Source: Rhodospirillaceae bacterium
GTDB lineage: Bacteria > Pseudomonadota > Alphaproteobacteria > Rhodospirillales > Magnetospirillaceae
DNA: 64,000 nt
Assembly (NCBI GenBank): GCA_031290545.1
Contig: JAITNJ010000037.1
Span: 62,001 to 126,000 of the forward strand
Direction: 5' to 3'
Shown here: positions 13,286-14,772 of the stretch, in pieces
Layout: each line of letters opens with the position of its first letter
Position numbering within the stretch: the first letter of the stretch is position 1
The notes under the pieces: model-generated
What the model was told of the DNA's origin: nothing
What the model saw: only the letters and a program-made list of their open reading frames with translations
The model's database searches: none
Translations under genes and position numbers: made by a program

Positions 13286-13426
13286 AAAGAAAATTTATTA
13301 TGATAATATAGACACTAGACGAGAAGTCTTTATCATTATATATAGTCATTTTATAAATTCTCATATCTTTGACTAAAATGAAAGTATCATATAAAATCCA
13401 TATTTTTATTAAGGAGATTGATTAAT

Positions 13427-13639
13427 TTGAATAAAGATAATATTTTATTACCATACAGCAGTGTTGCCATTTCTAAATTAGAACAAGCAATACATCGTCT
13501 AGAAAATACTATACAACAATGTGATTTATCACGCCGTTTCTGTAAAAGTAAACAACGTTTAGACGATCAAACGATACATATTGTCAAATCTCGTTTCGAT
13601 GCTATAATCTCTCAACTTAAGACAATTCTTGATTATTGA
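13427..13639 (+). CDS. small coiled-coil protein upstream of zapA (DUF4164-like)
   Basis: Adjacent to zapA; KLEQAIHRLENTIQ coiled coil. Track start is 13418; in-frame TTG at 13427 has better spacing from AAGGAG (13411-13416). Confidence 0.6.
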   Translation: MNKDNILLPYSSVAISKLEQAIHRLENTIQQCDLSRRFCKSKQRLDDQTIHIVKSRFDAIISQLKTILDY

Positions 13640-13642
13640 TCT

Positions 13643-13993
13643 ATGATTGCAAAAGTCAATATCAAAATTGGTGGTCGCAATTACGAAATCGGATGCGATG
13701 AGGGTCAAGAGCAAGATGTTCATGCATTAGCAATTGAGATAGATCGTCGTATCGAAAAATTATTAAATGATGTAGGGCAAATTGGCGATAGTCATCTTTT
13801 AGTCATGGCCGGACTGATGATGGTCGAGGAAATATATAAATTGCAACAAAGTGCCGAAAAAAATATATCATCAGTTCAAAATGAAATTGATTCCACATTT
13901 TCGACTAAACTCAATATTTTAACTCAACAAATTAATACTATTGCAGATTATCTTGAGAAGACATACAATACTACTGGAGCGGACACTACCTAG
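13643..13993 (+). CDS. zapA: cell division protein ZapA
   Basis: 116 aa; KVNIKIGGRNYEIGCDEGQEQDVHALAIEIDRRIEKL. Confidence 0.9.
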   Translation: MIAKVNIKIGGRNYEIGCDEGQEQDVHALAIEIDRRIEKLLNDVGQIGDSHLLVMAGLMMVEEIYKLQQSAEKNISSVQNEIDSTFSTKLNILTQQINTIADYLEKTYNTTGADTT

Positions 13994-14138
13994 TACGATC
14001 GAGAGTATCATCTACGGGGCCAATATTTCACTCTCGGGACTGTCACTGTCGGAATCGTGGTTTCGACACATGGTTACCACCTGCAACAGCAGGCCACGGA
14101 GAGATTTTAAAATCGAACGACTTTGGTGGTTCTGCTTC
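13976..14138 (+). ncRNA. ssrS: 6S RNA
   Basis: Located between zapA and fau (classic 6S locus); GC-rich noncoding island; terminal stem GGAGCGGA-C-ACTACC (13976-13990) pairs with GGTGGT-TCTGCTTC (14125-14138); CCAATATTTCACTC resembles the 6S GAUAUUUCAU segment; apical CCTGC-AACA-GCAGG hairpin. Ends approximate. Confidence 0.8.
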
Positions 14139-14178
14139 GTCATTAATTTTTTCATCAAAATATCTTGATTAACAAATC

Positions 14179-14772
14179 ATGACAAATCATCTTCTTTTTC
14201 CCGAAATTAGAAAAATGGAATTGCGTAGACGTTCTTTGTCTGTTCGGTTAAATACATGTAGATATTTAACTATCACTAGATGTAAAAAGATTATTGACTC
14301 CTTTTTAATGGTTATTCCTTGGACACCAAATTTAACAATCTCCGGTTATTGGCCAATGAAAGGAGAAGTTGACGTACGTCAACTTCTATACACATTAGTA
14401 GAATGTGGGTGCACAATTGTGTTACCTATGGTAGCGGCCAAAAATAAACCATTATTATTTTTTCATTGGTTGCCCGGAATGTCACTAACAATAGGACTGC
14501 ACAAAACATATCATCCGTTAATTACTAATATAGCTCTAACTCCAGATCTTCTTATTGTACCATTACTTGGATTTGATCGTCACGGAAATCGACTTGGTTA
14601 CGGAGGCGGATATTATGATAGAACAATAACTGAATTACGCAACAAACGAACAACAGTCACTGTTGGTATTGCTTATGAAACACAAGAAATTTCACATATA
14701 CCTCATGAACAACATGATCAGCGACTTGATTGGATTGTCACTGAAAAATCAATATTTAAATCACTATCATGA
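14179..14772 (+). CDS. fau: 5-formyltetrahydrofolate cyclo-ligase
   Basis: 197 aa; LLIVPLLGFDRHGNRLGYGGGYYDRT motif; downstream of 6S RNA. Confidence 0.93.
   Translation: MTNHLLFPEIRKMELRRRSLSVRLNTCRYLTITRCKKIIDSFLMVIPWTPNLTISGYWPMKGEVDVRQLLYTLVECGCTIVLPMVAAKNKPLLFFHWLPGMSLTIGLHKTYHPLITNIALTPDLLIVPLLGFDRHGNRLGYGGGYYDRTITELRNKRTTVTVGIAYETQEISHIPHEQHDQRLDWIVTEKSIFKSLS

Follow-up and report, generated by a model that had tools for sequence, protein, structure and literature searches.

A zapA reading frame that runs into the closing stem of 6S RNA in a reduced Telmatospirillum genome, and a triplet apparently shared by the zapA stop codon and the 6S promoter in Alphaproteobacteria

In Escherichia coli K-12, the 6S RNA gene (ssrS) lies between zapA and fau, 41 nt after the zapA stop codon. 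Gene order, orientation, RNA family and the rod-like fold with a central bubble are the same at the locus presented here, but the closing stem begins inside zapA, the predicted 6S promoter occupies the zapA 3' end and the Rfam 6S model (RF00013) gives a score of 25 bits. Concerning Alphaproteobacteria, a predicted sigma-70 promoter (CTgGtG-n17-CTATAT) has been described for sra56/6S of Sinorhizobium meliloti (PMC2245857), in line with the promoter predicted here; its passages on this RNA mention no overlap with zapA, unlike what is found at our locus. The 6S RNAs of Telmatospirillum and other Rhodospirillales (e.g., T. siberiense, L034/G003) align over their full length with the one described here and have the same -35 position, spacing and -10-to-stem distance. 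In these, however, the zapA stop TAA starts the putative -10 box (TAAGTT/TAAGTA), whereas here the hexamer reads TACAAT and zapA is nine codons longer. Finally, 17 of 30 Acetobacter loci show a zapA-6S overlap in which, as here, TAC (in TACATA) stands in place of the zapA stop and the open frame extends into 6S, although it goes further, ending in TGA or TAA/TAG 20-56 nt beyond the start of the 6S model, and arose separately. A literature search for 6S together with zapA in Alphaproteobacteria found no description of such an overlap, which is weak evidence for novelty given the partial coverage of the search.

Judged by its sequence, the RNA encoded at 13976-14138 (+) of the window (the whole 64-kb stretch of DNA analysed) is a 6S RNA, in agreement with the original prediction, and its gene, ssrS, occurs once in this reduced, AT-rich Telmatospirillum. 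The gene order zapA-ssrS-fau is present, as expected of 6S. The covariance-model search that had been suggested as a check gave a divided answer. Specifically, RF00013 had one full-length match in the whole genome (946,554 bases), at the zapA-fau locus, with 25 bits (E-value = 0.0016-0.0029) against a curated cut-off of 46.4 bits, and at its gathering threshold no 6S was reported in the 64-kb window. This counts against the prediction only nominally: the cut-off is a detection threshold and not a biological feature, and it was also missed by two controls and by several accepted 6S RNAs of relatives. Among 61 genomes, the source genome included, 54 have a 6S above the cut-off, and the source genome's is the weakest full-length match. 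The positive part of the answer comes from a covariance model (R1) built from 50 aligned 6S sequences of relatives, nearly all of which exceed the RF00013 cut-off, with the source genome left out. R1 matched 13980-14136 with 107.9 bits (E-value = 7.4e-19 for the window and 1.1e-17 for the genome), and a search of the whole genome returned no second match. Additionally, four 6S RNAs of the same genus align end to end with the one in the window at a mean column identity of 87%, and the alignment shows the bubble sequence around GGGGCCAAUAUUUCAC to be conserved. Genuine 6S RNAs of AT-rich reduced genomes go undetected at the RF00013 cut-off.

The RNA had been recognized initially as a GC-rich island of 163 nt between zapA and fau, and this holds: G+C is 0.46-0.54 at 13950-14149 and 0.26-0.34 in most flanking windows. 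On the forward strand, the 163 nt fold with -55.1 kcal/mol (z = -3.43, 1 of 200 shuffles being as good), while the reverse strand of 13976-14138 is unremarkable (z = -0.36). The minimum-energy fold contains exactly the bulged 14-bp terminal stem that had been proposed, as 8 + 6 bp (GGAGCGGA.ACTACC with GGTGGT.TCTGCTTC), its pairs running from 13976/14138 to 13990/14125. The 5' arm (13976-13990, +) consists of the zapA codons GGA GCG GAC ACT ACC and the 3' arm occupies 14125-14138 (+). A closing stem, a central bubble and a terminal hairpin are all present, and they are accompanied by covariation. When this fold was superimposed on the same-genus alignment, 96.4% of the cells were standard pairs, and eight pairs had both bases changed, compared with 2.5 in shuffled alignments. 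Of these eight, five belong to the outer helix, and four of the five separate the source genome from its genus. Three of these four, 13985/14130, 13988/14127 and 13992/14122, are compensatory, all from GC to AU, and have their 5' base within zapA. The identification as 6S draws on this compensatory change as well as on R1 and the alignment.

The zapA gene (13643-13993, +) encodes a 116 aa protein with the PF05164 domain of Pfam (E-value = 2.5e-18). Its end reads ..ACT GGA GCG GAC ACT ACC TAG, finishing at 13993 as predicted, and the overlap with 6S amounts to 18 nt (13976-13993). Same-genus ZapA proteins finish ..RLEKA*, whereas that of the source genome finishes ..YLEKTYNTTGADTT*; comparison with them delimits a nine-codon extension, YNTTGADTT (13964-13990, +), followed by a new stop TAG (13991-13993, +) that the sequence and the same-genus alignment place inside the 6S 5' strand. 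The comparison of the zapA-fau spacer among relatives, also suggested earlier, found zapA before 6S in 57 of 57. The zapA stop precedes the 6S model start by 10-33 nt in 55 of them and by more than 100 nt in the other two, and a negative distance (-13) occurs in the source genome only. At the T. siberiense junction, ..ATTGCGGATCGTCTGGAGAAAGCC TAAGTT.. is followed by about 10 nt and then 6S; in the identical register, the source genome has ..ATTGCAGATTATCTTGAGAAGACA TACAAT.. The ancestral stop position (13964-13966) is TAC in the source genome, and because of this change the zapA frame stays open for nine more codons and enters the 6S 5' arm. The overlap is thus apparently explained by loss of a stop codon in a triplet that, from sequence comparison, the zapA stop shared with the 6S -10 box. 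The loss itself may well be due to drift. We infer that the cells produce the extended ZapA and tolerate it, and a 3' extension of ZapA in annotations may have come about incidentally as the 6S promoter evolved. The stop loss is read from one assembly, where a single base decides (TAC for TAA/TAG), and an assembly error would leave the organism with an ordinary zapA stop before 6S. We give this explanation the least credence of those considered: the hexamer departs from those of the genus at other bases too, the change from TAAGTT or TAAGTA to TACAAT involving more than one base, and the TAC state is common to many Acetobacter species and hence viable.

Concerning transcription, we consider it very probable that 6S has its own sigma-70 type promoter inside the zapA 3' end and that the ancestral stop/-10 triplet became TAC, which extended zapA into the 6S stem. 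The predicted -35 box, TTGCAG (13941-13946, +), recognized by its conservation, lies within zapA coding sequence and consists of the last two bases of an Ile codon (ATT) followed by GCA and a G. The predicted -10 box, TACAAT (13964-13969, +), is located on the ancestral zapA stop, where relatives have TAA/TAG. The spacer between the two is 17 nt, and from the end of the -10 box it is 7 nt to 13976, which is the predicted start and the first base of 6S to be paired. Of the E. coli consensus bases, TTGCAG matches three of six and TACAAT five of six. With a promoter matrix derived from relatives, the site comes 28th among 127,940 positions of the window, though the matrix penalises its C; a generic promoter scan did not include the site in its output, the -35 box being below the scan threshold. 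We infer, from conserved sequence, that the promoter is active, that 6S starts near 13976 and that it binds polymerase. Transcription from TTGCAG-17-TACAAT would begin at the first base of the closing stem, and the RNA would presumably fold as usual and block RNA polymerase carrying the main sigma factor. In the zapA frame TATAAT would read Tyr-Asn, and a stop codon there would cost promoter similarity, with the -10 box deviating at its third base. A pyrimidine at that base would keep the TA of the box and remove the stop; in the source lineage it is C. For a group with little-studied 6S transcription, the analysis supplies a predicted promoter, a predicted start and bases that can be mutated.

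The register shared by relatives (TTGCNN, 17 nt, TARNNN, about 7 nt, stem) has the layout of a sigma-70 promoter, with hexamers 16-18 nt apart and the -10 box about 7 nt before the start, as does the site in the window, and therefore zapA stops and codons were surveyed across the class. The survey comprised 172 distinct alphaproteobacterial 6S loci, 117 of them with the zapA stop 3-20 nt before 6S. The stops in these 117 are TAG (62), TAA (54) and TGA (1); 24 further loci all have TAA/TAG, giving 140 of 141 in total with TGA in one. By contrast, fau stops in the surveyed loci (n = 165) are TGA in 124, TAG in 21 and TAA in 20, and zapA stops farther from 6S are TGA again in 10 of 23. The commonest hexamers at the zapA stop are TAGATT, TAAGTA, TAAATT and TAAGTT. 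Upstream, at -23 to -20 from the ancestral stop, each position of TTGC is kept in 113-115 of the 117 relatives. All 96 Ile codons at the -35 place are ATT, compared with 66 of 364 Ile codons elsewhere in the same zapA genes, and another 17 loci keep the TT by way of Leu CTT, Val GTT or Phe TTT. The Fisher values from these counts (2e-42 and 2e-55) ignore shared ancestry and so overstate independence. Nevertheless, as far as sequence comparison goes, a synonymous bias together with a stop bias specific to adjacency would be hard to explain without a promoter, and in most of the sampled alphaproteobacterial relatives the zapA stop apparently supplies the first three bases of the 6S -10 box.

Could TTGC and TAR reflect constraint from the protein and the stop alone, the overlap having come about by drift as the genome degrades and being unrelated to any promoter? 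In ZapA the Ile-Ala pair shows wide conservation, the GC of TTGC falls in the Ala codon and is conserved in the protein as well, and drift is to be expected in a reduced, AT-rich genome. Such constraint does not account for ATT in 96 of 96 against 66 of 364, for TT kept despite a change of amino acid, for an avoidance of TGA that is specific to 6S adjacency, or for a stop loss that left the hexamer near consensus, and we regard this explanation as very unlikely. We think it likely instead, if less firmly than for the promoter at this locus, that across Alphaproteobacteria with zapA-6S adjacency one triplet would do two jobs, terminating ZapA and forming half of the 6S -10 box. Promoter strength and termination would then be in evolutionary conflict, and the source genome and the Acetobacter clade would have settled for the promoter, the 6S 5' arm becoming protein-coding. 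The 6S RNA of the window is an ordinary RNA in its ordinary place; of more interest is the triplet apparently shared across the class, a clean natural example of bases common to a stop codon and a promoter element, from which lineages have escaped repeatedly.

In Acetobacter, the remaining 13 of the 30 loci end zapA before 6S, while the 17 overlapping ones all have TAC ATA at the ancestral stop. Their zapA ends in TGA at -20 or in TAA/TAG at -56 (past the 6S model start); in A. tropicalis (L064) and A. cerevisiae (L077) it runs 56 nt into 6S. The TAR-to-TAC loss in Acetobacter occurred independently of that in the source lineage. An arrangement in which zapA codes for the 6S 5' arm is stable, then, and has arisen at least twice. 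Among the Acetobacter loci (L064, L077, L209-L238), the extended zapA has a conserved tail such as AYIEEAELPGTSGESSPGPISTS. At the former stop, one Acetobacter locus (L216, G473) is a base shorter than its sister L213 (GGCTACATAG versus GGCTTACATAG), so that its zapA ends in TAG 6 nt before 6S; either the overlap was lost secondarily or the sequence contains an error.

According to the original prediction, maturation would need a cut in the zapA stop or close to it. More generally, 6S might lack a promoter of its own and be released by RNases that cut a zapA-6S-fau transcript inside the zapA frame. 6S RNA of E. coli is processed from longer precursors, zapA, 6S and fau are co-directional and close to each other, and no intrinsic terminator was found around 6S, which makes a read-through transcript plausible. 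Processing nonetheless leaves unexplained why TAA/TAG makes up 140 of 141 stops beside 6S when fau is dominated by TGA, why the ATT codon and the 17-nt spacing are invariant, and why each of the two lineages without the stop arrived at TAC, with TA retained. We consider it unlikely, and the supposed cut finds no support, the conserved predicted -35 and -10 boxes placing the start at 13976. With transcription from the promoter in zapA, no cut inside zapA would be required, because 6S transcripts would begin at the stem, and the TA retained after stop loss would reflect promoter use.

Downstream of 6S lies its usual neighbour fau (14179-14772, +), encoding 5-formyltetrahydrofolate cyclo-ligase (PF01812, E-value = 5.1e-33). 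In the interval between them (14139-14178) no intrinsic terminator was found; a run of six T (14147-14152) is placed about 9 nt past the stem without adjoining it, and read-through into fau is possible. The 75-aa ORF drawn over the RNA (13941-14168) was rejected as a gene and is probably spurious, as had been suspected, having no Pfam match and a frame that is open for at least 70 codons in only 37 of 117 relatives (median 41). Just upstream of zapA there is also a 73-aa ORF (13418-13639, +) with no Pfam match. The source genome, small, symbiont-like, AT-rich and in 49 contigs, with its 946,554 bases belongs to the same GTDB genus as Telmatospirillum genomes of 6-7 Mb, so there is strong genome reduction within one genus; a literature search for a described Telmatospirillum endosymbiont or symbiont found none. 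Only two sigma-70 family genes were found in the source genome, with frames of 677 and 301 aa, and the 677-aa one could be the target of 6S.
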